Origin: Hyaloscypha bicolor E
Taxonomy: Eukaryota > Ascomycota > Leotiomycetes > Helotiales > Hyaloscyphaceae
Assembly (NCBI RefSeq): GCF_002865645.1
Contig: NW_020194684.1
Location: 2,857,030 to 2,921,029 of the forward strand
Length of the DNA: 64,000 bases
Direction: 5' to 3'
The notes under the pieces were generated by a model. The model saw nothing but the letters and a program-made list of their open reading frames with translations. It did not search any database and was not told the DNA's origin. Every line of letters begins with the position of its first letter. Position 1 is the stretch's first letter. Shown piece by piece: positions 32,201 through 61,212 of the stretch. The translations under genes were made by a program, and so were the position numbers.

Positions 32201-33098
32201 GAATTCTAGGATACTAGTTATATATATATAAATATATAAACTATTTAAAATCCTTTATAAATAAACTCGAATTAGTAATCTAATTCTAAGTCGCATTCAG
32301 GTCTATATTTATAATACTAAGAGCAGAGAATAGGAAGTCTTATAAAGGTTTTATTATAAATTTAATATGTTTTATATAAGCTTAATTTCCTTTCTTTTAC
32401 TAATAATATAGTAGCTTAGATAAAACCTTCTTTTTTTTATTATATATATAAAGTCGAGAAAGTATTCTTTTTTTAAGTTTATCTAGAAATATTAGTTATT
32501 AAAAGTTTATTAGGCAAGAAAAAAATACTATTAGATAACTTATTATAGATATATATCTATACTAAAAGAAAGTTAGAAGAGATCTTTTCTTCTCCGGACT
32601 TTTCTATAAGATTCTATTTTAACTTTAGTAATAATATATCTATTTTAGTAAAAAGGCTAGTCTAAAACCTAGTATCTAGGTAAAATACGAGAAGTCTATT
32701 AAAATCTTTATATTTGTAAAATATATATTTAATCTTACTATTTTTATATAGGTTATTATAATAGGCTTGAATTACTTTCTTAATAAGGCCTTTTGGGATC
32801 TATCTTTTAAAAATAGCTATCTCTTTATTCCGTTTTAAAGCTATTTAAAAGAAAATAATAAGTTTATATAATATAATAACCTATTAAAAGTCCTTAAACT
32901 TAATTTCTAAATATAAATATTATTTTACTAAAATACTAAGAAATCTCTAATAAAGTAAAGTTTTTATTCCTATAAGGTATTTATTTAAATTATTAAACTA
33001 AGCCTCTAATAATAGTAGTAGCTATTCTTCTATTATACTAGGTATTATAGTAAGGCTAAGAAAGAGCCATAATTATAATTAAAAGTAAATAGAATAGT

Positions 33099-33203
33099 TT
33101 AAATATAATTAAATAATTTTAGTATAATTAAATAGTTTTAGTATATTTAAATGGTTTTAGTATACTTAAATGGTTTTAGTATACCTGAATAGTTTTAGTA
33201 TAA
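33099..33203. repeat. 19-bp minisatellite
   Basis: About 5-6 copies of a 19-bp unit close to TTAAATGGTTTTAGTATAC. The variants differ mainly at C/T and G/A positions. It lies in the RIP-degraded block and no frame is conserved, since 19 is not a multiple of three. Confidence 0.75.
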
Positions 33204-36200
33204 TAAAAAAAACTCTAAGTATAATGAAATATTTAAAATATAATAATTATAAGGCAAAGAAGTATTTTAATTTATTAAATAACCCGGATATATTAATACT
33301 TCTTATAAATATACCTATATTACTTTAGTAATTATAAAATCAGATAACTAAAAGTAGTAATAATTGCTTTTTAGCTAGTCTCTACTAATTTAATCTATTT
33401 CCGGCTAACTATAGGCCAAGATTTCTATCTTGATCTTAAGTAGGATAATAGTCTAGTAGTATATATCTACTATTTATAAATAATTAAGAGACGAGATCTG
33501 GAATTATAGTATTTTTAGAATCTACTATAGGTAAACTAATTAATTAGATTAAGTTTGAGTCGAATCTTTATTATTAGGATAATATAATTATTATCTCTAG
33601 TATAATTATACTCAGGTACTAGACTCTAGTTATTGAGATAGAATACTTTATAAATCATTATTTTAAGATAGAAAACCTAGTACTTTATATTAAAATATAC
33701 TATAATAAGGGTATTAAATATAAGAGATTTCACTTATTAAATAAAATAGACAAATTACAATCTTATAAATAGCCTAACTAATATCTATTCGGAATATATT
33801 TAAGGCCTTTATACTAGGATCTTACTAATAAATACTATTTTCTTCTAATTATAAAGAAGATATAGGATATATAAGAGTATATTAGCTATACTTATATATA
33901 TCTATAGACTATAATATTCTCAAATAAGTATATTAGATTAGTAAAACAATTATTACTATTAATTAGTTAGGAGATTTATTTAGGCTAGTAAATGCCTTTA
34001 AAAAAAAGAAAATATAGTATTTTTAGCTTTTTATTATTCCGTATTATATTTAGTAATATCTTAAAAATCTTATAGCTTGCTTTACTATTTTGGACTATTT
34101 TAATATTACTAATTCTATTCTTTTTTTATATATTCGAAAGTGTTTTGCTTTATTTTTTATAACTTACTAATTACTAAACTAACTTATATTTCTAATATTC
34201 TAATTAATTTTAAAGGCTTTATATAAGCTATAGGCTAGTATCTATATTATATTAGATATAGTACCAGAAATATAAAAGTTATTACTAAACTAGATATAGT
34301 ATACTAGGCTAGCTACTATTAGCCTTTATACCTAAGACTTTATAAATGAAATTATACTCTAAATATTACAAGTATATATAGGGCTATTTTATTCTAACTA
34401 AAAGTATTACTTGCTTTAATCCGAAATACTAACCCGTATAATAATTTTATATAAATATATATATTATAATAGCTATAAGGCTACTAATAATTTCCTATAT
34501 AATAATAAGGTTTTAAAGCTCGAATAAAACTCTTTTATAAATATTAGGGATAATATAAACTCTATAATAAAGCTATAATAAAGGAAATCTATAGTATTAT
34601 ACTATAAAAGGAAACTCTTTATAAATTAGATATAAAAGCAATAATATAAACGTGATTTTCTAATAAAAAGAATTTAGGGTATTCGGAAATAGCTGCAAAT
34701 TATAATCTATAGGAAAATATAAGAAATATTAAGGTATATATAGATTTTAAGATATTTAAAATTAAAGTACCTATTATTTTTTCTCGGTATATAGGGTTTT
34801 CTACTATATAAGAATAGATATTAGGATATTAGTTAACTAGAAATTCCAAAGAAGTTATAGAAATAATATAAGAAAATAAATATTTATATAATAGTTCCTA
34901 AAAACAAATTATAAATAATTTCCTAAGTTCCTATAAGTTTCCTATTATTTTAATAGATTACTAGTTATTTTTATAGGTATAATAGTACCTAAAGTAATAG
35001 AGGAAAAAGTAAAGAAAACTACCGGAATAGAAAATAAGACATTTATAACTATAAGTAGAAGAAGTTAAATAAGAAGTGAGATTTTAAAAAATATAAATTA
35101 AAAGAATTACTTTTACTATTAATTAGTAATATTTATCTTAACTTATTCCAAAGCCTTAATAACTAATAGTAAAATGCCTTCTATAAACTCCTATAATAAG
35201 AACGAATTATCTGGTATCTATATAGCTCTAGTCTAATAAGTTCTATACTATTTCTATAATATATATAAATCCGAGTAAAATCCCTTTTTAATTAAGTTAG
35301 CCAGAATATATATTTGAATTAGTATATAGTTATTAATTATTATAATTATTACCCTATAGGCTAGAATAGTTCCGGATTTTTATAGTAGGGAAATATTAGA
35401 GTTAATAAGGGTTTCTATTTGAAAAAGTATTTATAGAAAGGTAAAGACTATAGAGAAAATATAGAGGTTGGAAATACCGGAATATAAGAAGTAAGGATAT
35501 ATAAAAAGGTCGAGATATTTAGTAGGGAATTAGTAGTAGTATTAATAATACTAGTATTAGTAGGAATACTATTATAGATAATACTAGTATAATAGTTTAT
35601 ATATTACTATTAACTAAATATATTATACTTGTAGTAATCTAGCTTAAAGGAAATCAGATTATTAAGAATAAGTGGAATTATTATTAGTAGCTTCTTTATT
35701 TTAATTAGTTTAAGGCTAGTTAGGATTTAAACTATAATATAGTAACTGCTATTAATATAATACTTAGTATAAACTAGTATATTTTTATATAAAACTAAAA
35801 ATCCAAGAAATACTATTATTTTTTTAGTAAAGCTTACTATTATTATAATAAGCTATAGTTAGGTAATTACTAGTAATTATACTTTCTAGCTAAAAAAGGC
35901 CAAAGTTCTGGAAAATATAAAGAGTAGGTAATATAAGAAAGTTTCTAATATTATAGGTAAAAGTAAAGATAATTGAGATTATATTTTAAATACTATATTT
36001 AGTAATAAAGTTACTAAATAGAAATAGAAGGTCTATAGAAATAGGGTTAGAAAGTTTATAATCTCCTAATAAATATAGAAATAGTAAAAGCTACTAAGCC
36101 AGAATTTCCAGAGTAGTTATAGAATTAGGTTAGCTATATCTAGATATGACTTTTCTAGTCTTTAGATCTATATATTTAGTAATAAAAGAATTTATTAAAG

Positions 36201-38275: not shown

Positions 38276-38374
38276 CTATAAGCTATCTATACCAAAGGAG
38301 GCAAATGTCTCTCTAATATGAGAAAGAACACGACCTGAAATAAGACTTCCCTCAGAAGCCATAAAATATATATA
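38276..38374 (-). pseudogene. GH128-type glucanase, C-terminal piece
   Basis: The minus strand reads, from the insertion point, YIYFMASEGSLISGRVLS and then a short tail ending at a TAG (38,276-38,278). This is the usual C-terminus of fungal Asl1/GH128 glycosyl hydrolases (RYAYFM, then an SLxSG tail). It starts at the TA (38,373-38,374) abutting the left inverted repeat of the gene island. Its frame continues exactly from the piece at 49,784-49,959 once the island and one TA are left out. This piece has no internal stop, so it is little affected by RIP. Confidence 0.8.
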
Positions 38375-38418
38375 ACGTCTATCCCTGTATACCGAAAAAC
38401 CCTGTATAACGAAAAAAA
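38375..38418 (+). repeat. Left terminal inverted repeat
   Basis: Begins ACGTCTATCCCTG next to TA. It pairs with the right terminal repeat at 49,740-49,783 with six mismatches. Five of these are transitions where the left copy has T or A, as expected if this copy suffered RIP leakage from the neighbouring repeat block. Confidence 0.85.
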
Positions 38419-39141
38419 CAATAGGTACTTTGACTTCAAGTATCTTAAAATCTGTGTATACCTTAATATCTCTTATAATTTTTTATAAATTATATTCTAT
38501 AGCCACTTCCAGATAACCTAAACCCCTTTTACTAGAAAATCGTATTTACATCGTCGCTCTCACGCCTAATTTGCAAAGGGTCTCTTTTTATAGTATAATA
38601 GTATTCCTCTACCACAACTTCACTGCGGAGCGTATACTATTCCTAATACTTCTAAAGGAGTCTTATCCGAGCTCTTAGACTTTACCACTATGCAGGAAGT
38701 CGTCATTAGCCTTGTGGCTACTATGGCGCGCAAATTCATACATGATCGCCACGCGGATCTGTAAGGTTACCTCGGATGAAAGCGAGTGACGATTTTGGTT
38801 AGTGCAAAACAACCCCGTAATATTTACGCCGTATTTCAATTATGAAGCCTTAGGCATAAAGGCCAACGGTGGCTAGAGGTGCTGCGGCCTGGTGCGCACA
38901 TCCAGCTTAGTAATGACTTAAATGCCTGGCGTAGATGGTCCAGGCACGAAAATCGCAAACAAAATCTTGAACATAACAGACCTTGTATCCAAAGTCGCAT
39001 TCAAGCCAGCATCGACCCTATCATCTTGCATTCGCCAAAATCTCGCATGCTAGAGATCCTTAAGCACACTGCTAAGTGGCGGCTAGGCCGGCTCATATCA
39101 TGCCTATTGCCCTCAAGCTAGATCACCGCCCTGTCTTCCTC
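38419..39141. other. Left subterminal region, no gene seen
   Basis: Mixed composition rising to normal GC. It includes a 39-bp motif (38,422-38,460) with a diverged direct copy at 40,548-40,586. No convincing coding sequence is seen: the one frame of about 80 codons (38,879-39,121) starts at GTG and lacks domain features. Confidence 0.5.
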
Positions 39142-39276
39142 ACTCGATACCCTCCTCACTCGATACCCTCCTCACTCGATACCCTCCTCACTCGATACCC
39201 TCCTCACTCGATACCCGATACCCTCCTCACTCGATACCCTCCTCACTCGATACCCTCCTCACTCGATACCCTCTTT
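39142..39276. repeat. 16-bp minisatellite (ACTCGATACCCTCCTC)n
   Basis: Eight near-perfect units start at 39,142, 39,158, 39,174, 39,190, 39,206, 39,229, 39,245 and 39,261. The spacing is 16 bp except for one 23-bp step, where a 7-bp partial unit was added. The near-identity of the units means recent expansion and no RIP. It lies in the subterminal part of the cargo element. Confidence 0.95.
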
Positions 39277-39740
39277 ATCGATACAGTACTTCACGGTGAA
39301 GCTCTTTTTCTTACGGTACAGTATCCGCGAACCCTCGAAATTATTCCAACAAAATTGTTAGTAGATGGGATATCTCCAGACTCGGTAGAGGACAGATTGC
39401 ACGATATGATCCGTGCGCCGAACCTCAGAGAGGGAGCGACTTGATCCCGACTATCTTTCAAACTTGATATTTCATACGTGGCTCTGATCATAATGGAACT
39501 GTTAGGACGGCAGTTAGAGTATAAAGGAGAGTGGAAATCTCAAGCCACTTGTTGTAATTATCTTCATCAATAAATATACTCCAATGACCACTTTCTCGTC
39601 ACAATATCGATTGTCATACGTAGTCCTGTGCCTCCTCGCCTCCACCCCTCCCGTGGAACAAGCCGTCTCGCACAAAGAATTGCTTCTCTTAATATATCCC
39701 CTCCGGACACAATCGAAGCAGAGGTCGCGCGCCACCTACC
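39277..39740. other. Non-coding stretch, no gene seen
   Basis: Normal base composition, downstream of the minus-strand helical-protein gene and therefore probably its 3' region. Short frames on both strands overlap one another and show no family features. Confidence 0.4.
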
Positions 39741-40458
39741 TTACTGTCGTCCTAATAATTGCCGAAGTGCATCCTCAGTACTAAGCAGCTCTAGTTCATA
39801 ATAACGTTGTGTGTTCCCAATTTCGTCAGCGTCTCGTAGAAGACCCGTTACTATCAAGAGAATATGTTGACATGCAATAACTTTGGCCGAAGCGGCAACT
39901 AACCACTCCCGATCTGCATTTTCAAGTATTTTCACCCGAAACTCCCAGCAAATGCGACAAAAATTCTGGAGTTGGCGTACTAGTGCATCTGGCTCCATAG
40001 TTGAGGACGTCATACTGGGAATCTGGCTAGCGAACTCTTCCATCTTCTCCACAAGACGCTCTTGGACGGGATTTCTTTCCAAGTTCTTGATCCTGTTGAG
40101 GAGAAGTCGATGAACGGTCCATGTTTTCAAAATCGGTTCCGCTAGGTCATCTCCTATCTCCTGTATTGAGTTTTTCTTGACACCGTTCAACTCTTGGGCA
40201 AAGCGCTAAGAGCTTAGAAGCCCCAGCGATATTGACACCCTCTTCAAGAACTTGTATCTGTAGAGGCGAGCCATAGGCGTGGACTTGTAGGATAGCCACT
40301 ACAGCATCGGCCACCTCTGATCCGGTCGAATTCTTCAGGAAAGTAAGGAGAAGGACTTGTAGACGAAGAGTAGCATCATTACTGCATCGCTTCGTTCTGT
40401 AGTTGGTAGTGTGCCTACTTGCCGATAGCTGGTCTGGTTGTAGAGACCCTAGAGTCAT
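39741..40458 (-). CDS. Unrecognised alpha-helical protein, frameshifted or with one intron
   Basis: Two minus-strand frames follow each other. The first starts at ATG 40,458 (MTLGSLQPDQLSAS...) and the second ends at 39,741 (...DALRQLLGRQ). They overlap near 40,195 and read as one protein only with a +1 shift after LLALC (AQELNGVKKNSIQEIGDD follows smoothly), or with a 46-nt intron (weak GTTCTT donor, TTAG acceptor before CGC at about 40,206). The product would be about 240 residues, rich in Leu, Glu and Lys and all helical in character, with no membrane segment or known motif that I recognise. The open frame extends upstream of the ATG for about 28 codons (ICDVLSEKLKSM), so an earlier exon is possible. 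The gene sits in the TIR-bounded island. By feel it resembles helical N-terminal regions of fungal NLR-type proteins, but that is a guess. Confidence 0.45.
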
Positions 40459-40547
40459 CGACTTAAGTTTTTCGGACAGTACATCGCATATATCGAGGCC
40501 AATCCGGGTACTCCGGGTCCCAATAGTCCCTCTTCGAGGTCTGCCTT

Positions 40548-40586
40548 AAGTTACTTTAACTTTAAGTATCTCAAACTCTGTGTACA
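40548..40586 (+). repeat. Diverged direct copy of the subterminal motif at 38,422-38,460
   Basis: TACTTTAACTTTAAGTATCT followed by CTGTGTAC matches the motif just inside the left terminal repeat at most positions; the differences are mainly C/T and G/A. It may mark a relic end of a related element inside the island. Confidence 0.45.
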
Positions 40587-40916
40587 GAAGCATCTCATAC
40601 ATACGACTGTGTAAAGGTTGACGAGGACGGAAAGGTGCTGGTTGAAAATAAATATGGCGGAAAGGACTTTTGGGACGATTGACATGGTTTTGGACTCTTG
40701 CAATTAAGCGACGTTTACTTTTTCACAAGTCCTAAACTCCTGTGTTAGAGGAATTCAACCTCCGTAGGATCTACAACTCGAGAAGCGACAGTATAGAAGA
40801 ATATAGAATAGCCTGTCGCGGTGAATCATACCCAGGAAATTGTTTTTTTCCCCCTCATCTTTTCCAGACCTCCAGACCAGCAAAAGCTCTTGTACTGAAG
40901 ACACCCGGGATTCCCG

Positions 40917-41135
40917 ATGAATTTTCTCCGTCGTTCCTCTTCTGTCCAAGCGGGGGGTACTGCAGACCTCTTCTCGAAACTGGTCAAGCTGGAATCCACA
41001 CTTTCCATGCTTACCAACGCGCTAACCAGCCTGCATGTGGCGCCCTCGATTGCAACTTCAGGAGGAGCCGGTTCTGTCAATAGCGCCAACAAGAAGTTTC
41101 AGGGCCTAGAAACCATTTATAAGCATGAGTTATAG
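40917..41135 (+). CDS. Small ORF, 72 residues, unknown
   Basis: ATG at 40,917, stop at 41,133-41,135. The product starts MNFLRRSSS and has an amphipathic segment LFSKLVKLESTLSMLTNAL, then a Gly/Ala/Ser-rich stretch and a charged tail. The composition is protein-like and Cys-free, without a signal peptide. It could be a small independent protein, or an exon of a gene whose other exons I cannot place. It runs toward the minus-strand vWA gene (convergent). Confidence 0.3.
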   Translation: MNFLRRSSSVQAGGTADLFSKLVKLESTLSMLTNALTSLHVAPSIATSGGAGSVNSANKKFQGLETIYKHEL

Positions 41136-41269
41136 ACTAGCATACGCCTTTGGTGACTTACTAGTGTACTCTCGAGCTCCTTGGGCTTTCCATGGGTCTC
41201 GCGGAAATGGTTCTCGAGTATAGAGTCTGACAACGGGTTAACACAAGCTGCTCGAAATAGAAGCAAAAG

Positions 41270-42209
41270 CTAGCAGAGAAATTGACGCAACGCACTCTGG
41301 TTAACCACATCGAGGTGATCTTGCAATTCTTGGATTTGCACAAGCTCATCCAGGAATTCCCGGGCACCTTCGTCTGTCCCCACCTGGACGATTCCAAAGG
41401 CGATTGCTGTGTCGTCTATGTCAGCAACTAAGATCTTCAGGCTCGGTTAGTCCCTGCAGTTAACTCACCCGCTGGACTGTAACTATTGGCGGCGAGATCA
41501 TTCTTGCACTTTAACACTGACTCCTTCAAGGCGCTTCTGGGCTCTGCCGTGGGCTGAGGGGTTCTGGTCAGTACATCTGATGTGCATGGCTAGGTTGAAG
41601 TAGAGCATTTCGTACCTCGCCATCAGTGATGACATAAACCAAGCAGGGTCTCGCAAATTTGGCTGGGTCTTCCACGATCTTCGACCAGATCTTGGCTCTC
41701 AAGACCGTGCCCAGCCGGGTGGACCCTCCATATTCGACAGCTTCCGACCACCTGTTGAAGTCGTCGACCGAGTTGATGACTTCTTTAGGGTCCTCGCCAT
41801 TGAGAAGATGGAGACGAATCCCTTTCTCGATGATGGCACAGTCAATATCGACGATGTTACGAATAGTCGATTGCGCGGTTCTGATGCGATCTTCCTCAAA
41901 CATGGATCCAGAGTCATCTACGGGTCCGTAGGTCAGAATATCACTGAATTAGATTTGAGATGGAGTTGCAAGCATACCAAGCAAGATGTGGATCTGGTAG
42001 AGAGACAAGAGCAGCATTGAGTAAGCATACTCACTCATCTCCTCCGCTGAGAAAAACTCCTCGACGCGGTCGCGCCAATCGCTCAGCTTTTGCTCTGCAT
42101 TCTGTGCAATATTCTCAACGACCTGGGGGTCCGTGAAGAATCGCTCAAGCCTGTGTCTCCTGATGCTTTGCTGCAGATATGCTAGGCAAGCCTCTCTGGA
42201 GTGCGGCAT
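41270..42209 (-). CDS. von Willebrand factor A (vWA) domain protein, 249 aa, 4 exons
   Basis: Model on the minus strand: exons 42,209-42,031, 41,943-41,616, 41,553-41,469 and 41,427-41,270. Introns are 87, 62 and 41 nt, all GT-AG (donors GTATGC, GTACGA, GTGAGT; branch-like CTAAT, TACTGAC, GACTAAC). The total is 750 nt in frame. ATG 42,209 has an in-frame stop upstream. Residues 1-59 form a charged helical N-terminus. The vWA fold follows with a complete metal-ion-dependent adhesion site: D69-D-S71-G-S73, T135 (GGSTRLGT) and D167 (VITDGE). The C-terminus carries AIAFGIVQVGTDEGAREFL, typical of fungal single-domain vWA proteins. Such domains bind partners through a divalent metal; the partner here is unknown. 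It is divergent from the 998-residue gene (347 bp between the start codons) and may share its promoter region. It is intact, with no RIP signs. Confidence 0.85.
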
Positions 42210-42555
42210 TGTGGCAACACCTTGATGAGACGGAGGAGCTGTTCAAGATCGACGTGGGAAGGATGAGATTCAGCACCGTTAGAAAATTGATGCAAGAAAC
42301 AAAAAGAATGATAAAAAAAAGTGGAAATGGGAGGGAGGGGTATTTGAGTCATAATACAGGCCTACGGCAATCCTTCATTCATGATTACAAACCAACGTTA
42401 GCGAGAAGAAACCCCACCACTCCTGGCTGATGTTAGGCTTCCGGGCTGCTTCGTGAGTTCTCCCTACATTCTCTCAACTCCTACTTCAACGATCCAGAAA
42501 TATCCAAAACTCCGCTTCAAGCCATCAACTCTGTGTGCCCTATCCAAAGGGCAAG
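42210..42555. promoter_or_regulatory. Divergent intergenic region (shared promoter candidate)
   Basis: 346 bp separate the ATG of the minus-strand vWA gene from the ATG of the plus-strand 998-residue gene. It contains an A-rich and purine-rich tract (about 42,297-42,345) and pyrimidine-rich sequence just before 42,556, a common ascomycete core-promoter style. No clear TATA box is seen. Confidence 0.4.
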
Positions 42556-45500
42556 ATGTCGTTCGCAGCCAAGAGTACTCGCCCCCGCGATGGTAAGAAG
42601 GAAACATCAGTGCGGAGTTCTGCTGACAACAGCTCTACCAATGCCCCAAGCCAGCCGAAACGAGGGGTTGCAGACCAACCCGCAACGGCACCCAACACTC
42701 TCAACCCATCCAAACCTTCATTGAGCAAATACTTCTACGACTTACCTGCTCGCCTCAACGATTTAGAGGGACGGGACGCTACACGGGCAGGATGGTCATC
42801 CACGATTGACAGCGTCATGAACGAGATTATACGAAGCCGAAAAGAGCAGAGCCTGGATATAAAGTCGTACAACCCAGCTCATGAAACCAGCTCAAACGCC
42901 GCCGTTGAGATCATAAAATGGCTCGCGTATCCCAACAACTGCAAACTCCGCAGAGAGGAAAACAAAAACAGATATGTGGAGGCGGACGTTAGGGCGAACC
43001 AGGATGAATACTGCGAGTGGGAGGTGGAGAGACAAAATGGGCACCTCAAGAGTGTCACTTTCACTACTGAAGTCCCTGAGGTATGTGTGATGGAACTGAC
43101 AACAGATTATTCGGGAAAGCTGATCGAGATTGATATAGTATTACACTTACCTTGCCAAGGCTGACCCAACTGGTGCCCTTCTCCTACGCCAGTACAAGCG
43201 CCTGAACCCAGATGTAGCAGATTCGATCAAGCTTGAAGACCTCGTCGATGCAAGAGGCGCCTACAATATCAAAAATCGTTGGAATACGAGAGGTACCGAC
43301 GAGAATTTAGGCTTGGAAGGTCGTATCGCACATCTGATTCGAGAGAACAACAACCTTCAGGAAGCGGCCGAATTGGTGGTTGACTCCACCGTCGTCCGCA
43401 GAGACGCAAAAGGAGAGTTCGTCGCTGGCGGCCGATCGCTACTCCTTGCTATGGTTCCCAAGGTCTCCGACAACAGCCCAAACCGGAACTCAGATCCAAA
43501 TGTAAGGTTCCAAGTACATGCTAGTGAAAGAACCATCTAACGTTTGCAATTTGTACCATAGATTGCAGCCTTCATTAATCAATTCTCAAGGGATGGTAAA
43601 TTGGTGACTGTGTCCAACCCAGTCGGCCTCTACATCGATTCCTTCGAGGACAGCGACTTCAAGACTGTGGACGGCGACAGCGTATCGAGCTTTTGGAATG
43701 TAGAGAGAAAGAGCCAAGACGGCCGATATGTGGTGCGGGCCAAGTTCACAGTGCCAACTGGCCTCCTTGGCAAAATCTTGCACGCTCATACGAAACAACG
43801 GTTGAAGCACGGCAGCCAGCTGGCAGAGAGTATCTGGATCGCCGCATATGTCACGATAGCTGACTCAACAATCCATTCGGAAACTCCTTGTCCAGCGGCC
43901 GCCTCTCACCCAATCTACTCCTTCATTGAGGGAAGACAGATCAAGCCTACAGAGGTCCCACGAGCTACCATTAACAATGAGCTCCGTCTTGAGCTTTTTG
44001 GAGCCTACTTGGCATCGACCGAGAAGCCTGCCATCATTCTGAGGGACCTAATTGCCACGTTTGAGGACTACACATGGGCGGCGTTTGCAGCGGACGAGGG
44101 AATCGGCTTCTACAGTGAGGTCGTACGAGTACGTATGGTGCTCATTTGGATCCCTGGCTCCTCCGCGAAGCCTCGCTCTGGCAACACATCTTCCAAGATG
44201 GGAGACGCCCAGCTCCTCAAGCGGGATGCCTTCGTTCGTCCCACGGTAATGGTCGTGGCGCTCCCTCCGTTTGATAACAAGACCAATATCCATTCGGAGA
44301 ACAGTATCTTGCAGGTGGCCAGCTATGACCCGCGCCTTGGTTGGTTCAACTTCTACGACGTAAGTTATCTCTCATTATCTGTCTGTCTACGAGTCACTTG
44401 TTTCTGACCATTACCACTAATAGCGGGAGAAAACTGGAGATCGTCGTTGGCTATACTTTGGGAACTCCAATGACGCCTTCGCCCCCGATACCCATGGCCT
44501 CGGCCCATTCTGCGGCCACCCGAACGGGGCCCTGGCGATGAAGGAGATTGTTGAGCCGTGGCCGCACTGGCACTCCACGCGAGCGCAGCTAGACCTAAAG
44601 CACGATCACCCGCTCAGCCGGGATCCGCTCTTCAGAGACCCAAACACTGGATCGTGGTACTTCAGATTCGTGGATCAGCTGGCTCATATGGTCACTGCGG
44701 GAACCAAGAAGTGGTGAGCCCCTCTCCAAATTTGCTTCCTTGGTCTTCTCTCTCTAACAGAACACTTGCTGACGATGGCCTTAATAGGTTTCAAAAACGA
44801 CGTTTTCTTGACTTTGGGCCACGGGCAGATCCTTCTCCGACAGCAAAGCGCATTCACCAGTGGATCTCACATGCTTGCATGAACACAACCATAGAGATCA
44901 CGTCCTCGTCTAGCAAAATCCCTTCCAATCCAAATACGCCGGGGACGTTCGATATTCCCCTTGGCTTCTTCTTCAACTCTCAAGCCCTGGGGCTCGTGCT
45001 TGATGGAGTAGGGGACTTGGTACGTGTTGCTTCATGAATTTGACCCCTCCACGGTAATAGTAGATCAGGTGGCTGACAAATACAGGCTGACAGCATCAAT
45101 TCCATCTCCTGGGCCAAGTATAAGGATGCGTCATCCAAGCTTGGCTTGAGCACTGTTTCGGGATTCGGTATCAAGACTGGTGAAAAGGATGCTCTTGCTG
45201 CAGATAATGAAGGTTTCGTAAGTGACAAGAACTTGGCTCCATCCCATCGTTAGGCACAGTCTTCTCACAGATTACTCTGGCAGGTGCCGTGGAAAATTGT
45301 CACGCCGAGCACGGAGGATACAGAGGGAGTCTCGATTGTCATCGAGACCGGCCTGCTGCCCAAGAACATCATAGCCGCCATATTGATGGTTGATTTCTGG
45401 TATATAACTGACTGGGCTTATCTACTAAGTGAGCATCGAGTCCTGCAACCTGCAAGCTAACTCCTGGAAGGAATCCTGTTTTCTCGTCTCGTCGAGCGCA

Positions 45501-46011
45501 GCTGATGCGATACGTGCCCTCAACAGCTACCTACAACACGAGCGCTCCTCCGCAAGACAAGTACACGTTAGGCGCAGATCTCGTTGCCGCAGTCGAACGA
45601 GGTATCGCGACGTACGGTTGCGACGACGCAAGCCCCGAGGCCGAGTTTGTCCGACTCGCTCGCAACCCGAACATTTTCAATGACGCGTACGCTAAGTTAG
45701 AAACCTACATCAAGGGTATTAACAACCATCTGAAGAATGAGAACGGCGTGCTCGACTACATGAGGGTTGCGGAGACCAGGCGGCGAACCTTCCGCCCGCC
45801 TCCGCGGTCGCGCAAGCCAGCCCATCCTCTAGCCGAGTTCGAGCTAACACTGCCATATGCGCAGAAGATGGATCCAAATTTTGAGGAAACGTGGGTGATG
45901 AAGTCAGATGGCACGGTGGAGATTGCAACCCCTGCTAAGAGCGTGTGGCATCCGAGAGATAACCAGGCTCATCTCATCGCCTCTGGCTGCCCACACTCAC
46001 AGGGCGTCTGA
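42556..46011 (+). CDS. Large conserved-type protein of unknown function, 998 aa, 8 exons
   Basis: Exons: 42,556-43,080; 43,139-43,501; 43,562-44,359; 44,424-44,713; 44,788-45,019; 45,086-45,217; 45,284-45,399; 45,471-46,011. All seven introns (58-74 nt) are GT-AG and the frame closes at 2,997 nt. ATG 42,556 sits in GGCAAGATGTCG. Residues 1-60 are Ser/Pro/Lys-rich and disordered. Next come a segment with EYCEWEV, VTFTTEVPEYYTYL and GAYNIKNRWNTRGTDENLG, then DPRLGWFNFYD, a GLGPFCGHPNGALAMKE motif (C592, H594) and a C-terminal part with VDFWNPVFSSRRAQLMRYVP. I have seen this layout in uncharacterised bacterial and fungal proteins; related proteins often have a C-x-x-C-H cytochrome-c-like site where this one has only F-C-G-H. 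Haem binding is therefore doubtful. No signal peptide or membrane span is seen. It is divergent from the vWA gene, intact and RIP-free. Confidence 0.8.
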
Positions 46012-46529
46012 ATAGAAGCATTTGCCGCTGTGTGATGCATTGGATGGCATAGCAATTCCCCAGCCTTTGTTTAGGATTAGGTACTCAAAAGTCACTCTTT
46101 TAAACAGGCCCAAGAAGATCCCTTCCCGAATGTCCTGTCACCACGCCATATGTCTCCCGGGCTCCCATGTGAGCCTAACTGATTCTGTTGCAATTACATG
46201 AAGCTTAGTAAGACAGTTGCAAAGTGATAGTAGGAAGTTGAAATTGAATCTGTTTTTAGGGCTGGCAAGTCCGTCGTGTGCGTGTTGGTGATCTCTCCGT
46301 TGATGCGTTCCTTGTGTTTGTATGGGAAATTCTGGAGAAGAAGACTATTGGGAATTTCGGGAAGGCCGAGGTACGTGTGTCCAATCAATCGCAAAAGAAA
46401 AATCTTCAGCCCCTCACAATCCGTATCTGGGCTTTCATTTTAGCGACAACATATTTAATCCGTCCTTTGACAAGCTGGTTTCCTATTTTGTGACCGTGGC
46501 GATCTCAAGAAAGTCTCTATACAGGCGAC
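46012..46529. other. Intergenic region, promoter of the ankyrin gene
   Basis: 518 bp between the stop of the 998-residue gene and the ATG at 46,530. Composition is moderate and I see no gene. The short frames here are mutually overlapping and lack family features. Confidence 0.4.
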
Positions 46530-47460
46530 ATGGCAAGTAAAAGTCCTTGCTGAGATTCGGTGTGGGAATGTAACGAACTGACAAAGCTTGCCCCGTGCCA
46601 GACAGGAGACACATCCTCGTACGTCTACTCCCAATCTCCTCTTCAACCCTGGAGGATAAAATGCTGACGGACGGCCTGGTACTCCAAGGGGATGGACTAA
46701 ACTGCACTACGCGGCGACGCGAGGCGATCAAAACCCAGAAGCACTGCGGAGTGCAATCGCAGCCGGATACAGCTTGGAGACAAAGACCTCGGACGGACAA
46801 ACGGCGCTCCACAAAGCGGTGAAGTTTGGACAAGAGCAATCCGTACGGATCCTCATACAAGCGGGCGGCAACATCGAAGCCACCGACTGCAACGACCAGA
46901 CGCCTCTGCACCTATCCGCCTGCTACAACACCACGACAACGACGAAGCCGCTGCTGGATTCGGGTGCGAACAAGGAGGCTCTGGACCGCTGGAGCTGGAC
47001 CCCCGTGTTCTGGGCCGTCTATCGCGACTACGACGGGGTATTCGTGCTGCTCCGCGATGCCGGTGCGCTCACCACCGACAACATCACCGACGACAAGCGC
47101 ATGACGCTGCTCCACTGGGCCGGCAGGGCCGGTAGTCCCAAGATCCTGCGGCTCATGCTCGACCGGTGCCGGACGCTGAGACTCGAGGAGAAGGACGCCT
47201 GGGGATGGACGCCGCTGCTGTGGGCGGCTTACCACGGCAATGTCGACGTGTTGGGGATGCTGATCGACTTTGACGCGAACAAGAACGTTCAGGACCCGGA
47301 CGGCAGAACTCCGTTGTCTTGGGCGGCGAATGAGGGCCATGCCGATGCTGTGATATGTCTTCTCGCCAAGTGTGCAAGAAGGGTCCTTGAAGATAAGGAC
47401 GGAAAGACGGCTAGAGACTGGGCGAAGACGGATGAAATAAGAGCGCTATTTGACTGTTAA
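46530..47460 (+). CDS. Ankyrin-repeat protein, 263 aa
   Basis: Model: exon 1 46,530-46,536 (ATG GCA A), exon 2 46,606-46,618, exon 3 46,689-47,460; introns 69 and 70 nt with GTAAAA/GTACGT donors, CTGAC branch sites and CAG/AAG acceptors. This yields MARDTSSGWTKLHYAATRGD and then an uninterrupted set of about seven ankyrin units: GQTALHKAV, DQTPLHLSA, SWTPVFWAV, RMTLLHWAG, GWTPLLWAA, GRTPLSWAA and GKTARDWAK. If the two micro-exons are wrong, the first ATG inside exon 3 (46,774) would cut off the first unit. Ankyrin stacks bind proteins; in fungi they often follow HET or NACHT domains, but none is fused here. It is intact, GC-rich (notably more so than its neighbours) and without RIP signs. The nearest neighbours are a transposase fragment and a HET pseudogene. 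Confidence 0.8.
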
Positions 47461-47544
47461 TACTAGGTCACCAGTTTCTGAATATTCTTAGTTCTAGGCC
47501 TATTAGTATCGCTATATTCAGTCTTATATTCGCTCCTATACGTC

Positions 47545-47940
47545 TTAAAGCAGTAGTGATACTAGCGCCGTAACAATAGTAAGGATTTTAGAGGTATGCT
47601 TGATTCTACGCAATGCCTTTGCAACCTGAGCATTGCTGACTACTACTTCAAACTTAGCGAAGAGATAATTAGTAATTTCATCTTGGTATAGCTCAGGTTC
47701 CCTTTCCAATAGCCCAGCTATAAAGACCTCCATCTGACGATTTATAACAGGTGCCGGCCCTTGAGCTCTTGGTAGAGCATTTGTACCACTCCTCTCCTTC
47801 TGTAACCTTCGATTACGCTCACAAATCGTCTTATAAGTGGTATTGAACTGCTTAGCAATAGTAGTAAAGTCAACGGAAGTGCCATTAAGGAGAATATTAT
47901 CGATTTGGGTTGCAATTCGACGTGGAAGGTTGGGAGCCAT
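47545..47940 (-). pseudogene. Tc1/mariner-like transposase, N-terminal half only
   Basis: Minus strand, ATG at 47,940, 131 residues starting MAPNLPRRIATQIDNILLNG. It has a first helix-turn-helix (FTTIAKQFNTTYKTICERNRR), a Pro/Gly linker and a second helix-turn-helix unit (PELYQDEITNYLFAKFEVVVS ... AKALRRIKHTSK). This layout precedes the DDE catalytic domain in fungal Tc1/mariner transposases (HTH plus the TSKxL junction). The protein then runs into a non-homologous tail and stops at 47,545, so the whole DDE domain is missing. It could still bind inverted repeats. It lies in a TA-flanked inverted-repeat element, so it may be the remains of that element's own transposase or of a later insertion. 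It is not visibly RIP-mutated. Confidence 0.65.
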
Positions 47941-48054
47941 ATCGACCCTATTTGCCTCTGTCAACACCAAGAATGCCTTTATTTTGAGCTACTTACTAAC
48001 GAGTTTGCAGTTGTTGATGTGGAGAAATCTACGAGCATCGATTTTCAGTGTGGT

Positions 48055-48870
48055 TTATAGCAAATTTTGATGTTCCGGCGTTAATAACTGAAAGATAACG
48101 CCGAACCGAGAGGTCACTGTAGTGGGTAGCTCATCGAGCCGATATTTCCATTCGCGGTTCAGCCTACGGAATACGTTCTCCTTCCCCTCGCCATAGATAA
48201 CTGGCATCGAGATGTCGAAGATGCCTAGCAGGGAATAAGCCTTGTCCTCTTCACGCTGGGTCTCCCGAAGCTGTGCCCACGATATTCGCTCGTCGAAGCT
48301 AAATTCAGAAAGAGGGCTACTTTGAAGAGCGGAAACTGGAATCCCCGTTATCTTGTGAAGCTGCCCCTCTAATGATTTCTTGTTACCGAGTCGATTGCCG
48401 TTCGAGCAGAAGAACTCAACCGATGGCGGCGCGATAAGCTTTTGAAGCGTCCAACCACGGGTAAACCATCGACTATTCCCAAAAGCTGCCTCCCACGCCT
48501 GTAGAGACAAGTCGATTTGATCATTTGTCGAAACATCTGTCAGATATACGTAGCATTTTGCCGCTTTGCGATACCAGCGAAACATAGAGTTAATAGCTTC
48601 CGAAAGCTCCCTGTCGCTCGATTTGTTAATACAGCAAGTATCTACCCAGAAGTTATGCAAGTCATCACGTCTGGCTTGCCCTCCGCAGAACCGAATCTTC
48701 TCATATCCAACCTTGCTCTTCCCAGTACTATCTATCAGGTCTCTATATATGACCTCTTCTGTATCCGCCCCCCATGTGTGTGAAAGGATAGCATATTCGG
48801 GAATCTCGCCGCTAACAAAGTCCTTAGTCAGGCTAAGCTCGCCATCGTTGTTGTATTATAGTAGGCACAT
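48055..48870 (-). pseudogene. HET-domain (heterokaryon incompatibility) protein, nonsense-mutated at codon 5
   Basis: The minus strand carries a full HET domain with its three hallmark blocks: EYAILSHTWG, FWVDTCCINKSS and SRWFTRGWTLQKLIAP. KAYSLLGIFDISMPVIYGEG follows, as in HET-D/HET-E type proteins. The natural start appears to be ATG 48,870, reading M-C-L-L-stop-YNNDGELSL, where the family normally has M-R-L-L-(Q/N/H). Codon 2 (TGC for CGC) and codon 5 (TAA for CAA, 48,856-48,858) are both C-to-T changes. The next in-frame Met is far inside the domain. The frame ends at 48,055, a TAA that could be another CAA-type change, leaving no NACHT, WD40 or ankyrin partner region. The family triggers cell death after fusion of incompatible hyphae. 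This copy is almost certainly silent. Confidence 0.85.
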
Positions 48871-49739
48871 TACTCAGACAGGATCTGACAGAATCTCTGA
48901 ACGAAAGAATGTCGGTGAATAGTTCTCGCAGGGTCGATATGCATGCATTTGTTGAGTTGGGAGTACAGGTTAGGTCGAGGTTGTGCTCTTACAGCTCAGC
49001 TGAACGACAGCCTCGCGGCATGGTGTCGTCGTGCATCATCACTTCCAGCGCGCCAGCCAGCCAATCGTGGCCAGCCACTGCAGAAGGTAATGGCGGGCTG
49101 TCCGAACCATTCGAGCCTCTTTGTTATCGGAAGATCGATCATAGTCATCAGAGTCGAAGGACAAGGCATGCGCTGGTGACAGGGGCATGCGCTCGTGACA
49201 CGTAAGCTCCCAAGAATTCCTGACGCGAGGAACATCCACATAATATCGAAGTCACAAAAAGCTGTCAATGGCGCTCGAAAGTGGGAGAACGCCACACTTT
49301 CACGTGACGTCTATAAAATGCGTAATAAAATACTGGCTGTGAATACAATATTAGGTAATGGTGATAAATCCTTTCTCGCTTATTAAGATGCTTGGCATTT
49401 TGTGTACGAAAGGTACCTCCCACTTTTGTCCGGATAAATCCGGCAGGCAGGTTTCCTTGTGCTCTGTATCTTCAAACCTTGGAGCTATATTTGAACTTAA
49501 TAGAAGCTCTATGCCACGGCCCCGAATTCCGGGGACAGGTCGATAGTCATGATAGAGCAGGGGGTAATAGCTATAGCAGCTTTTGACGCTCTCAACAGGA
49601 CGATCGACAGCATGGCCAAACTATAGTATTTTTCTGCCTGCAAGTCGAGCCCTTGTAGATAAATAGCTAAAGAATAATAGCAAACTGATTATAGCTTTAT
49701 ATATTTACGTGGTAGAGATTTAAGACCCCTAAACTATAA
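48871..49739. other. Right subterminal region, no gene seen
   Basis: 869 bp upstream of the HET pseudogene and inside the right terminal repeat. It contains a 17-bp direct duplication (49,165-49,181 and 49,184-49,200, GGCATGCGCTSGTGACA) and a CACGTGACGT-plus-TATAAAA arrangement at 49,298-49,319. No frame with recognisable features is present. Confidence 0.45.
49298..49319 (+). promoter_or_regulatory. CACGTG box next to a TATA-like sequence
   Basis: TTTCACGTGACGTC is followed at once by TATAAAA. CACGTG is a bHLH-factor site and TGACGT is CRE-like. This could be a core promoter reading toward the right end of the element, but no gene follows before the terminal repeat. Confidence 0.25.
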
Positions 49740-49783
49740 TTTTTTTCGGCACACAGGGTTTTTCGGTACGCAGGGATGGACGT
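49740..49783 (-). repeat. Right terminal inverted repeat
   Basis: Reverse complement begins ACGTCCATCCCTGCGTACCG and is flanked outside by TA (49,784-49,785). It pairs with 38,375-38,418. This copy keeps the C and G bases that are T or A in the left copy, so it is closer to the ancestral sequence. Confidence 0.85.
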
Positions 49784-49959
49784 TATCTGTGTATGTAATC
49801 TTGGCTGTCCAGCCAAGGCAAAACTTCTTCCAGAAACATTATTTCCTCCTCTTCTGAGCTAGGGCCTTGAAATTCCGTAATCCAAACTGGCCTATAACTA
49901 CTATCTTCATGTGCCTGCATAACGTAATCTTTGAAAGCGCCTGCGTTCCTACTATTGTC
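49784..49959 (-). pseudogene. GH128-type glucanase, middle piece with the nucleophile Glu
   Basis: The minus strand reads from D (49,957-49,959) NSRNAGAFKDYVMQAHEDS, then RPVWITEFQG (49,855-49,890) and EEVLPWLDSQDYIHR, ending at the TA next to the right inverted repeat. WITEF carries the conserved nucleophile Glu of GH128/Asl1-like beta-1,3-glucanases. The piece is open throughout, without RIP stops. Upstream the frame is lost abruptly at about 49,960, where the Helitron begins. It continues the N-terminal piece (ending ...IHWY equivalent at 62,745) and precedes the C-terminal piece at 38,374. Confidence 0.85.
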
Positions 49960-50702
49960 TTCACTTCTTTATATTATCGTACGTTTGGACCACCCTTAAG
50001 CGGTTGGCTCTCGGGGCTCCTGGAAAAAAACTGGTTACGTAAGGAATACCAGAATCGCCCCCTTCTAGAGAATCGCATATCGGAACGCAATTACGTCTAA
50101 ATCCTTAGAGCTTAGCTTAGGATTATAGAGAGAATACTCGAGTACCTTTCTCTATATTTTAGTAGTTCTGAGATATAAGGGGCTTTTATTATAATTTTTT
50201 AAAGCTCGGGGGAAAATCTAAAGCTAGCGGTTCCGTAGAAGGTACTAAGAAAAGAAATCCTGACCTTATATTACTCTTCTCTCTTTCTTCTCTTTATTAC
50301 TATGGATCCTCCCCGCTTTTATACTTCTTATAGGCAAAACCGGCCTGCTTTTGACTTTATTACAGAGCGGGCTAAGCTATATAAAACTTGCTCTTACTAT
50401 TGAGTTTATATCCTTCCCCTTTTCTGGCTTAATTAACTAGTTAATAGGCCCGAAATACTACTAATTATATCCAGTAGTACCCTGCCTTATAAGAACTCAA
50501 TCCGAATGCCCTCCCTACCTCCCGGTAATAATAATAGTCAATTACGGACATCTCTATAGACGAGCCAGCCCTATAGCGCCAGTAACGGATCCGTTAACCG
50601 TCTGTTGCAGCCCTAGTTTATATTATAAAGGACCCTCCTACTAACCCACCTATTATACGGCCTCCTGCCTTTCTCTCCCGCTTCCGGCCAGCTCCCGTAT
50701 AT
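49960..50702. other. Helitron 5' region
   Basis: The first about 140 bp are near-normal in composition; the rest is AT-rich. An ATG at 50,302 opens a 33-codon frame (MDPPRFYTSYRQNRPAFDF...) that ends in TGA, probably the start of the Rep/helicase protein or a separate leader ORF. The 50,440-50,700 stretch is Pro-rich in translation and frame-shifted relative to 50,703. Confidence 0.4.
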
Positions 50703-52671
50703 ATGACTGGTCTGTTTACAGATTACTATATAGCTTGCGGAGCCCTTTATTTTGGCTATATAGATAATTACTTTAAGGCCTATTATAAGAAGAGTAATAT
50801 AATACTTCTTCTAATCTATAAGCCTTTTCTATATCTCTCTTACCTCTCTACGGGCAATAACCCGCTTTACCGGGCCTTCCGGACAAATATCCGAATATAT
50901 AATTATACTTTTGCCTTTATATTAATTAGCTATAAGAAGAATATCCGGATTGACTTCTCCTATAGGATCTAGTACTTTCAGATCTATAATAAGCTCTTCT
51001 ATTTTCAAGGCCTGCTATAGCCCGCTTTATATACCGAACCCTTTTTTATATAGCTCTTCTTTTATAATCCGCTCTTTATAACTAATATATAGGCTACTAA
51101 CTTCCCTTATTTAGATTATATAGTTCTTTTATAGCTTACGAATATACTTATAGATTATAATTCGTTTATTATAGTCTATAAAACAGCCTGTAAATATCTT
51201 ATAAGTTAGTAAATCGATTTCCGGATCTTACTTAATCTATAAATATACTTAGTTCTTAAGTCGGGTACTAATTATTATTATAAGAACCTTCTAATAAGTA
51301 ATAAGGTTATAGCCCTTATTTCGGATAAGTATACGGATATAAGCCGCTATAATCTAGTATTTATAGTCCGTAAGATAGGCTATAAGTATCCGCAAATATA
51401 TATAATTAATATTATATATATAATATATATATTACTCTATTATATCTTACTTTTCTCATATAGTAACTCGGACTAGTATTATAGTTTATAGTTATAGAAC
51501 TATAATAGGACCCGTTAACGGATATAGCTAGAGTAATAGGTCTTTTACTAGTACTATTTCTATATTTGTCTGGCCTTCTCTTTACTCTTTTATACTAGTT
51601 GCCTCTTTTAGTAATATATTATTAATATATATATTACTTATAAAACTACCTTACTCGATTAGCTTTGCTTATACTAGTAGAATATCCGTATAGATATATA
51701 TATAGGACTTATAAATGCTCTAATTTATAAGAATATTTATATAAGTAATATTAGCTATTACTTTATTCTCTTATTAAGCTTTATAGGTAGTAATTGCTTT
51801 ATATAATAGCTTTTTTAAGACTTAATAGCTATTATATAATATTTTAGTAAGCTAAGCTTCTTTATTACTTTTATGGCTAACCTATACTAGCCTGAGATTA
51901 CAGATTATCTCTTAAACGAATAGTAAGCTATTAACTATCCGGATCTCTTTTACCGAATCTTTATATTAAAGGTAAGAGAGCTATTTATAGACCTAAAGAA
52001 TTATCTTTTCGGACTATATATAGGCTATATATATATAATTAAGTACTAGAAATATAGCCTTTTATATATATATTTGTTCTTATTTCTTAGAAAAGAAGCC
52101 GTTTTCTTAATTCCCGATTTAGTTAATAAAGTTATTTATACTAAGCTTTTAGATCTATTATAAGATCCTATAGGCAAACTTATAATTATAGTAACTAGTC
52201 AGATATCTTATAAACTATATAACTTTAAAGATAATCCGAAAGCCCTATATATAGTCTATAAGATGCCTATAGCCCTGCTTATATATTAGAAGAGGTTCCC
52301 TAAAGTATTTATAGCTATAATAATTATTTATAAGAATAGATATCCCGAATACTAGTACCAGAATAATAGCTATATATTTATAGTCTATAAATAAGGCTTT
52401 CTAGATCAGGAAGTTATCTATAATAATTACTAAATTATTTTATATAATTTGTATCTCTTCTAGAAATTCTGCTCCTATATTAATATTGAGGTTTATACTT
52501 CCGTATAAGTAATTAAGTATATTTATAAGTATATCTATAAAGAAATAGACTATATAATTATTATAGTTTTAGAAATAAATAATAAGATTACCTAATATTT
52601 TCAAGCTTAGTATATAGGCCCTATAAAGGCTTTCTGGTATTTATTTAAGTACCTAATATACTAGGAGTTTC
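50703..52671 (+). pseudogene. Helitron Rep (Helitron-like N) domain, 5' half of the Rep/helicase ORF
   Basis: The first 89 codons are open (MTGLFTDYYIACGALYFGYI...). Beyond 50,970 the frame goes on with stops of the CAA/CAG type. Recognisable blocks follow the order of fungal Helitron proteins: YFQIYNKLFYFQG, LFFYNPLFITNI, LTNILIDYNSFIIVYKTA, IIKYQKYSLLYIYLFLFL (HUH region, 52,056-52,090, where the two His codons of HLH read TAT), RYPEYQYQNNSYIFIV and VQVIKYIYKYIYKE, ending at YQEF. There the retrotransposon LTR interrupts EFPPV. Rep nicks and joins DNA during rolling-circle transposition; with both histidines lost this copy cannot. Confidence 0.8.
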
Positions 52672-52931
52672 TATTATAAGTATAAGATCTAGAGCCTAGA
52701 AGATATAGTTAGACTATCTCTATCTTAATAATTTAAAGCTAAAGAAAGAAGAGGATCTCAAAGAAGCCTCGGATCTAAATAATTGCGAGCTATATACGGG
52801 CTTATATACTAGCTTAAGCTCGGGGTCACGTGTAATAATCAGGTAATTATAGATGCCTCGCTTAGATACCAGATGCCTTTCTAGCTCTAGTCTAACCCCT
52901 ACTAGTATTATATATTATAATAACCGTAATA
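52672..52931 (-). repeat. LTR (3' LTR of the minus-strand element)
   Basis: 260 bp, nearly identical to 58,446-58,705. It contains GGGGTCACGTGTAA near 52,822 where the other LTR has GGGGTTATATGTAA; the difference is of C-to-T/G-to-A type. Confidence 0.9.
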
Positions 52932-53689
52932 TTACTTCTTCTCTCGAAATAAGCTTATTCTCGAGCTTTAAAAGTCCCTATTAAATTTCCAAGTTACAGG
53001 TCACATATTAAAGGCCAGGGCCTTTTATATATAACTTTAAAGAATTTCCGTCTATATTATGCGGTTCCGGTAGTATATTATTCTTGGTATAGTCTAACTA
53101 ATAGGAGAGATTCTAGGGCAGTTCTAGCTATTTAGGGTTCTTATTATAAAAGCTCTAAAAAGCTAGGGTACTATTACTTAATAAGAAAGTAGGATATTAC
53201 TCCGGATCTGGGTTTTATTCTTTTTACTAGACTTAGTACTTTAGCTTCTTATAAAGCAGTTTTACTACTTATATCTCTTGAACTTTATATTTTGTTTCTC
53301 TATCTTATAGTTCTAATAGCAGAGGCTCCGGATTTGCTTATCCGGGAAGAGGGTTATCTAGGTCTTTATATAGCTTCTCTATATAGAATACCGGATATAT
53401 TCTTATTAATTCCGGAAGCTTGAGCCTAAAGAAATATCTTACTTATTTCAGGATTTTATATAGTTCTTTTATTTAGTAAGCTAGCTTATAGCTCGAATAA
53501 TTATTTTTCTAGTACTTAGTAGTAATTTATATCTTATTTCCTACTCTAAAGTCTACTAGTTAATAGTACTTATTAGCTTAAATAGTATAATATTCTTATA
53601 CTTATATTATATTCTCTTATACTTTTTATTATAATTTATAAAGCTATATTACTAGAGCCTTTACCTTCTATCTATTTAGCTCTTTTTTT

Positions 53690-54700
53690 GAAGTATCTAA
53701 TTATATTTGGGTTTCCTAGTTAAATAATATCTGCGGTTTATAGCCCTTCTTTATAAGAAACGGGAATTAGCCTATAGTCTTATAGACTAGAGCTATCTAC
53801 TAGTAGTTAATTATTATTACTTATTTATTCTAATTATCCTAATAATAATTCATATAGGAATGCAGCTATTAGTTAAAGTACTAGTTAATAATTTCTATCT
53901 AGCTATTAGTTTGAGAATAATTAATAGTTAATAACTTGAGCTTTATATTAATATATTTATAAAACTTGCTCTAGAAATCCGATATGAATTAGGGGCCTTA
54001 ATTAGATACTATAGTCTCCGGGATACTAATTTAGTAAACTATATAAATAAGGAATAGAGATACTAACTCTTTAGCTATTACTATATCTCGGACAGGAATT
54101 ATAATAGAGCGCTTGCCTAGGCAATTAATAAAGATTATTACTATATTATACTTATTTCTATTTTCTAGGTATTTCTTAAAATTCACTAATATATATTACT
54201 AGGGATAATTAGGGACTAGTAATAGATATAAGAGCCCTAGCTTCTTGTTTCTAGAGATATGAGATTATTAATAGGTATAATAGTTATCTTTATACTAATT
54301 AATATTTATACCTTAGCCTAGCTAGTAATAGTAGGCCTAAAGAAGCTATTAAAGCTTGGCTTATTCTAGGTATCTTATTAGGGGCTATATATATGCCTCC
54401 TAAATAAGGGTAATATATAAGAGTATCTCGGGTATTATTATATTATTAGATATAAATAGTTTATTATATTATAAGAGAAGGCTATCTTATAATATTCAAG
54501 TATCTTTCTTCTTATTTCTTGCCTTATCCTATAGCTTTTCTAGCTCCGGTAACTCTCGGTTCTCGCTTAATAGCTTATCTATTAGCTAGATACTATTATA
54601 TTAGATTTCTTTCTAAGCCGGGCTTATAAAGGCCTTAATTAGGGCTAACTAGAGATCCCGTATAATATTATTATTAATCTTTTATTATAGGAAGAGAATT
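53690..54700 (-). pseudogene. Integrase region of the gypsy element
   Basis: The minus strand, reading TAA/TAG as Gln, gives the integrase core: IPETIVSNQGP (compare LPETIVSDRGPQF, about 54,000-54,030), then YQLFSNQQLDR (compare STAFHPQTDGQTER), ELLLGQLEQ and LQTADI. The Asp of SDRG is Asn here. Integrase inserts the cDNA copy; this one is inactive through at least ten stops. Confidence 0.7.
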
Positions 54701-55289
54701 TGGGTTTAGTAGGCTACTATTACCTTATTCTAGGTAGTTATATTCTTATATTTCTTACTTAGAGCATTTACTTATTTATTTAACTTACTTACCTAATATA
54801 TAAGCTTGAAATAATAGCAGGAAAGATACTTTATCTAGTAAGCTTATCTTACTAAAAGCTTCTTTATAGTTATAAAGTACTTAAAGACTCGATAGTCTAA
54901 GTAAATTATAAAGAATATCTTTTATAGGCCTTCTAGCTCCGCTTACTATTTAGTTAAAGAGAGAATAATAGCAAGTATTTCTTTATTATAAATATTATAG
55001 TTTAGCTCTACTAACTATATAGTCTTAGAGAAGAATACTACCGGGTACCAGAGTTCTATCTAGGGGTCTTATTATAAGAGAATACTAGCTATAACTTTAT
55101 TTAATATATTTGTCTTAATTATAATAAGAAGGTTCGGGTTATAATAATATAAAATTAGTACCGAGAGTATAGCTTACTTTAGCTTAATAAAACCTTCTTA
55201 ATACTAATCTATTTACTTAAACGGAACTCCCTTATATATTAGAGCTATTAGGGGCTTTGCTATATAGCTATATTCCGTAATAAAGTACT

Positions 55290-58705: not shown

Positions 58706-58710
58706 GTTCT

Positions 58711-60960: not shown

Positions 60961-61008
60961 TCTATAAAGAGTCCGTACTAGCCTTTATTATATTTCAATC
61001 CCACTCGG

Positions 61009-61095: not shown

Positions 61096-61212
61096 TATAT
61101 AACACTGTTATAAGATCCGTATAATCCGGACACTACTATATAACCAGTTTTTGTCCGTACGGGAATACCAAAACTCTTATACGCTTCACTTGCACGCTAC
61201 TTTCTTCTTATA

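Follow-up and report, generated by a model that had tools for sequence, protein, structure and literature searches.

The 64-kb stretch of the Hyaloscypha bicolor E genome analysed here (the window; contig NW_020194684.1, positions 2,857,030 to 2,921,029) contains an 11,409-bp gene island at window positions 38,375–49,783, with inverted repeats at both borders. We interpret this island, with a probability of roughly 85%, as one copy of a pogo/Fot-type cut-and-paste DNA transposon family. Its ends are defined, a TA target is duplicated, two natural sites without the island exist in the same genome, and the ends belong to a family whose members have mostly differing interiors and whose transposase gene is linked to one of the two end types. 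All the evidence comes from this one genome, of 82 Mb in 76 contigs.

Boundaries and target site of the island

The island is bordered by 44-bp terminal inverted repeats (TIRs) at 38375–38418 (plus strand) and 49740–49783 (minus strand). A recount gave 38 of 44 matching bases, in agreement with the original prediction, and a 53-nt version of the repeat, including outer bases, is 85% complementary. As also predicted, a TA lies outside each end, at 38373–38374 and 49784–49785. The GC content is about 0.4–0.6 inside the element and 0.2–0.3 in the leftward flank. A 33-base end pattern, allowing up to three mismatches, found 19 matches in the genome versus 0 for the reversed control.

Joining the two flanks and leaving out one TA produced an uninterrupted minus-strand frame across the junction, matching PF11790 (Glyco_hydro_cc, 5.7e-15). 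Two paralogous sites elsewhere in this genome, close to C26:1181.8k and C70:850.8k, are without the island. Over 1,172 bp across the junction, they are 88.0% (no gaps) and 86.3% (one gap, off the junction) identical to the joined flanks, indicating that the island came as a single TA-targeted insertion. Transitions account for 139 of the 141 and 152 of the 159 differences, mostly with G/C in the window and A/T in the paralogue, a pattern that repeat-induced point mutation (RIP) would give. The 19 matches against none in the control, together with two empty sites showing the same junction, place the repeats beyond chance.

These empty sites also bear on whether an ancestral gene island could be flanked by a pair of short elements or solo ends that are unrelated to each other. 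About half of the listed ends of the family described below have no partner within 20 kb, which favours such an arrangement, but both paralogous sites lack the whole island, with the exact junction. On this evidence we rejected two independent solo elements at the window, a case that the original prediction had set against itself, and the arrangement retains a negligible probability.

The island had been predicted to interrupt a GH128 gene. The restored frame upholds the interruption, but the target is a relic, because the paralogy stops at 49956, a separate repeat matches from 49965 on, and there is an upstream in-frame stop. The relic comprises a portion to the left of the insert (38288–38374) and another to the right (49786–49956), both on the minus strand and delimited by the frame and genome searches, with Pfam support for the left portion and the paralogue alignment for the right.

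A genome-wide family of L and R ends

The left and right ends, termed L and R, are alike only over the terminal 50 bp or so and divergent beyond. In the window, the L-type region common to the family spans 38375–39126 (plus strand; 80% over 759 bp to element E25 by blastn, and genome search), and the R-type region 49289–49783 (minus strand; blastn and genome search). We searched the genome with 101 bp of the left end and 129 bp of the right end, taking the best 40 of 45 and the best 40 of 52 candidates, and with longer L and R queries, which gave 42 and 41 matches. The L set includes 39 of the 40 left-end matches (the window's own R end was dropped) and 38 of the 42 matches to the longer L query (four internal fragments were dropped), and the R set includes 38 of the 40 right-end matches (two L ends were dropped); matches to the longer R query were not added. 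The final merged set contained 49 L and 38 R ends, 87 in total.

Of the neighbouring ends at most 20 kb apart, 23 pairs were convergent and seven had another orientation, while random placement of 87 ends produced a mean of 0.45 convergent pairs and a maximum of 4 (2000 trials). By type, these were 18 L-R, 5 L-L' and 0 R-R pairs. At C53, a further L-R pair is interrupted by a different family member inserted at TA in its L end, giving 24 intervals of 3.6–18 kb each that total 191 kb, or 0.23% of the genome. Among ends read base by base, 49 of 50 are preceded by TA, a dinucleotide that makes up 11% of those at these loci. This count started from 53 ends, from which three matches with 11 mismatches were set aside as spurious; L030, also with 11 mismatches, was retained and coincides with an L end found by blastn. 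Other repeat pairs with TA and mostly different cargo, for which the original prediction proposed a search, occur in this genome.

The 16.9-kb stretch at C51 was rejected as one element, as it contains an inverted L end at 8.3 kb; an 8.3-kb L-L' copy together with a remnant is the better reading. At C53:144544 (L031 8647), a family member is inserted at TA within another's L end, and the copy nested there bears a HET gene. Another repeat, of 7.3 kb, is nested in an L end at C24, and the repeat found at window positions 49965–62579 recurs inside an L end at C24 (L046), about 80–90% identical in pieces.

The transposase

Pfam domains and a spacing of 35 residues between D2 and D3 (DD35D) assign the putative family transposase to the pogo/Fot type. 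A 631-aa open frame with a DDE_1 domain (3.1e-31) is located in the L-L' copy at C51, and the C4 copy contains DDE_1 and HTH_Tnp_Tc5 domains, with one stop in the aligned stretch. Relatives among the best 120 of 927 matches are 57–76% identical, and those named among the matches listed are from Lachnellula, Pseudogymnoascus, Bipolaris, Pyrenophora, Botrytis and Alternaria.

From 107 scored transposase matches (of 167 candidates), we picked 28 by hand and checked them for nearby R ends. In 11 of the 28, the transposase gene begins 324–1127 bp inward from an R end of the same strand, at 572–633 bp in nine of them. Several of the R-linked matches span only about the first 80–180 codons. Most of the copies read lack the transposase gene or keep just a 5' part of it, and other genes make up their interior.

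Cargo-bearing mobile elements of fungi are mostly discussed as Starships, which have a tyrosine-recombinase captain and are much larger, whereas here we found a DDE transposase, TIRs and TA. Starships likewise can carry HET, NACHT and ankyrin genes, and the overlap of these classes with the cargo of a Pyrenophora Starship (PMC9594970) would be compatible with a small or degenerate Starship. However, the island shows a TA duplication and 44-bp inverted repeats, a DDE_1 transposase is associated with the family's R end, and a tyrosine-recombinase captain domain (DUF3435) was absent from the ten window open reading frames (ORFs) scanned, so that we consider a Starship very improbable.

Cargo across the family

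Twenty-one of the 24 intervals were readable end to end, and their interiors are mostly dissimilar between members. We scanned 48 distinct chosen ORFs with Pfam, some of them from partly read stretches, and the resulting domain counts are lower bounds. HET domains are present in at least seven of the 21 fully read elements (the window, C51:2.17M, C22:2.26M, C33:2.02M, C33:0.61M, C53 and C5). In those at C51 and C5, consecutive ORFs contain HET, NACHT-type (NPHP3_N/NACHT at C51 and NPHP3_N at C5) and WD40 domains, and the element at C3 carries a patatin, NB-ARC-like and TPR set, with an NB-ARC score under the Pfam cut-off.

At both C51 and C5, an L end lies about 625 bp from where the WD40 frame stops. 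Likewise, the distance from the R end to the start of HET similarity is 671 bp in the window and 750 bp at C53, with 68–79% identity over the matched stretches. These offsets fit cargo that travels with the ends, falling short of proof.

The offsets are relevant to a different history, in which a short, ordinary pogo-like element inserted at TA and genes were added later inside it, so that the cargo never moved as a unit. Nesting does occur in the family, both of a copy within another's L end and of the 7.3-kb repeat at C24, and the empty sites date the insertion rather than the arrival of the interior. On the other hand, the spacing between cargo genes and ends agrees between unlinked sites (C51/C5 and window/C53), no nested terminal repeats of the carrier family were detected inside the window element, and growth in situ would have been needed many times to produce 21 readable elements with mostly different interiors. 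We regard this history as unlikely, although it keeps a real share of the probability, and favour the transfer of interiors together with their pogo-type ends.

We compared HET positions with the 24 intervals using two lists, one for PF06985 (the best 150 of 785 candidates) and one of HNWD-type matches (122 loci from 138 matches, with 130 of 289 scored); the combined 272 positions keep entries shared by both lists. Five of the 272 fell within intervals, compared with 0.79 by local shifting (P 0.001). The PF06985 list alone gave 2 of 150 versus 0.35 (P 0.046), and the HNWD-type list 3 of 122 versus 0.44 (P 0.0098), indicating a modest to moderate enrichment. Around the unpaired ends tested (n = 39), a listed HET gene lay within 10 kb on the inner side in three cases and on the outer side in one.

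The genome as a whole is very rich in HET, with 785 PF06985 candidates, and all 150 scored exceed the cut-off. The L-L' copies at L054 175–5660 and L028 1003–9264 contain consecutive HET, NACHT-type and WD40 ORFs, and their WD40 arrays self-align in many registers. In a partly read pair at C56 (L034 5235–8049), an ORF for an OTT_1508-type deaminase adjoins a MYND-finger ORF, and ankyrins are present too.

RIP and duplicate copies

Next to the window element, at 25175–34821, is a second member of the family; it is AT-rich, with its L end at 34821 and the R-end part missing. This member and a copy at C26 (L042-L043) are 88.8% identical over 9.7 kb, and 1008 of their 1023 substitutions are transitions. 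The interiors of these twins have a GC content of 0.21–0.23 and a composite RIP index of 1.07–1.12. Among the unique interior parts of 20 elements, the index is negative in 16 (−0.38 in the window) and positive in four (E25, E30, E38 and E41), whereas the shared interior stretches of 15 elements show a positive index in nine. By these measures, RIP-like mutation has ruined the single duplicate pair of full length that was found, and most unique interiors are spared. The trend is consistent with RIP of shared cargo; with its exceptions and a list of copies that lacks the C21 and C57 pairs, part of C56 and most single ends, it is not a clean test.

Proposed mechanism and weight of the evidence

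We propose that the L and R ends would be recognised by a DD35D transposase supplied by other copies, where its gene starts some 0.6 kb in from the R end, and that everything between the two ends would be excised and reinserted at TA, with duplication of the TA. The anatomy of the family supports that this enzyme may act in trans on the window copy. Cargo could be gained by faulty gap repair after excision, with interiors replaced by copied sequence, and the same faulty repair might yield L-L' forms as end duplications. RIP would then destroy copies that share cargo, favouring unique cargo. Judging from their gene families, the HET and NOD-like receptor (NLR) genes carried may function in recognition. 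More tentatively, and at less than even odds, the pogo-type family could be carrying allorecognition and NLR genes throughout the genome while RIP sorts the copies.

Several observations weigh against our interpretation of the island as a mobile pogo-type copy. No transposase remnant of the window copy was found among the 107 scored of 167 candidates, so the source of its enzyme is indirect, and 17 of the 28 transposase matches checked, including the open C51 copy, had no listed R end nearby. The R end L033 is preceded by TC rather than TA, and the 16.9-kb stretch at C51 and the 18-kb stretch at C24 are composite, containing additional ends or a nested repeat. The evidence for mobility is drawn from a single genome. 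Finally, the sole near-identical cargo pair found arose by segmental duplication and not by transposition: the E42/window twin was rejected as proof of movement, as both flanks match.

Comparison with known systems

Fot1-type elements are short and have one transposase gene, and DD35D spacing is typical of Fot. The family described here has in common with Fot1-type pogo elements, of the IS630/Tc1/mariner group, the TA duplication, TIRs, a DDE_1 domain with an HTH/CENP-B-type domain and the DD35D spacing. Unlike them, its members are 3.6–18 kb long, with long, differing interiors, and the transposase is often lost or reduced. The features of the IS630/Tc1/mariner group are those given in PMC7325037.

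Transduplication in fungi includes a hAT element with histone H3 and an ORF inside a Pyrenophora Tc1/mariner element (PMC3538342, PMC6710886). RIP damage to multicopy cargo is reported there, a likeness to our family; in those cases, one captured gene is amplified into many similar copies, whereas here the interiors mostly differ. ToxhAT is a TIR-bounded, 14.3-kb element of ascomycetes with eight genes, 74-bp TIRs and no target duplication detected (PMC6737239). It is hAT-associated and a single cargo lineage, in contrast to a family with interchangeable interiors, and our elements differ from hAT in that the duplication is TA, not 8-bp, and the family transposase is DDE_1. The original prediction saw in the island a TIR/TA cargo element of a class apart from Starships. 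The empty sites, the family ends and DDE_1 support the distinction; the class is not wholly separate, because fungi are known to have both transduplication between DNA-transposon ends and ToxhAT, an element of 14.3 kb.

Podospora HNWD genes, of the het-d/het-e type, combine HET, NACHT-type and WD40 sets like those at C51 and C5, where they are in consecutive ORFs. They form a dispersed family, for which a TIR carrier is not reported in the text consulted (PMC1805685).

As gene capture between TIRs was already known in fungi, a single pogo family whose many interiors differ and hold several genes, HET/NLR genes among them, would be the new part. No pogo-type HET/NLR carrier appeared among the titles listed from the full-text literature searched, which leaves bioRxiv and most subscription journals outside. 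Pack-type elements of plants are non-autonomous TIR elements with captured host sequence, mostly gene fragments, and are moved in trans. The family differs from them in its several long ORFs, its NLR-type domain sets and the RIP-like mutation in the genome.

If our interpretation is correct, the movement of whole allorecognition and NLR genes extends to small cut-and-paste transposons, providing a dispersal route for HET-NACHT-WD40 genes and a testable tie between RIP and cargo turnover. If sorting by RIP holds as well, a host genome defence would be a driver of how HET/NLR genes spread and diversify through small cut-and-paste elements, and the cargo would be convergent with that of Starships. 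The idea is directly testable now that the family's ends are defined, along with a candidate transposase and naturally occurring empty sites.

Other features of the window element

Ten window ORFs were scanned with Pfam, and eight had no match at 0.01. The other two correspond to cargo named in the original prediction: the ankyrin protein is encoded by a 266-aa ORF at 46660–47460 (plus strand; PF12796 2e-38), and the HET domain by an ORF at 48055–48855 (minus strand; PF06985 1.4e-12). The HET frame begins MCLL-stop-YNNDG, where the fifth codon from the likely start is a stop, so that this gene is probably broken, a pseudogene rather than the gene predicted.

Just inside the L end, repeat finding revealed a 16-bp tandem repeat array (39110–39305, plus strand; family D1). 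It is followed by two overlapping ORFs of 154 and 132 aa (39741–40545, minus strand), without Pfam match, and by two ORFs at 41568–42242 (minus strand), one with a DxSGSM motif. The vWA label in the original prediction goes back to this motif, recognised by eye, and Pfam gave no match for the ORF that holds it. A 192-aa ORF at 45433–46011 (plus strand) is also without Pfam match. A 147-aa ORF at 47545–47988 (minus strand), the helical protein of the original prediction, gave only sub-cut-off scores (LysM 0.024, HTH_32 0.051); by eye, we take it to resemble a Tc1-type helix-turn-helix, and the same holds for a short ORF at L053 422–886 in another cargo element, also with weak Pfam scores.

Exon-like ORFs of a cargo protein, recognised by genome and protein searches, occupy 43139–44407 (plus strand). 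The ORF at 43562–44407 occurs once in the genome, matching only itself, and the genome search with this one ORF found no source gene outside the elements. Its 281-aa product has no Pfam match, and an AlphaFold model built with 14 sequences had a mean pLDDT (predicted local distance difference test) of 55.7. Among 5.8 billion proteins, it has 14 homologues at E ≤ 0.001, of which 13 are tagged PF26676, and one homologue, P0130, by eye also resembles 43139–43540.

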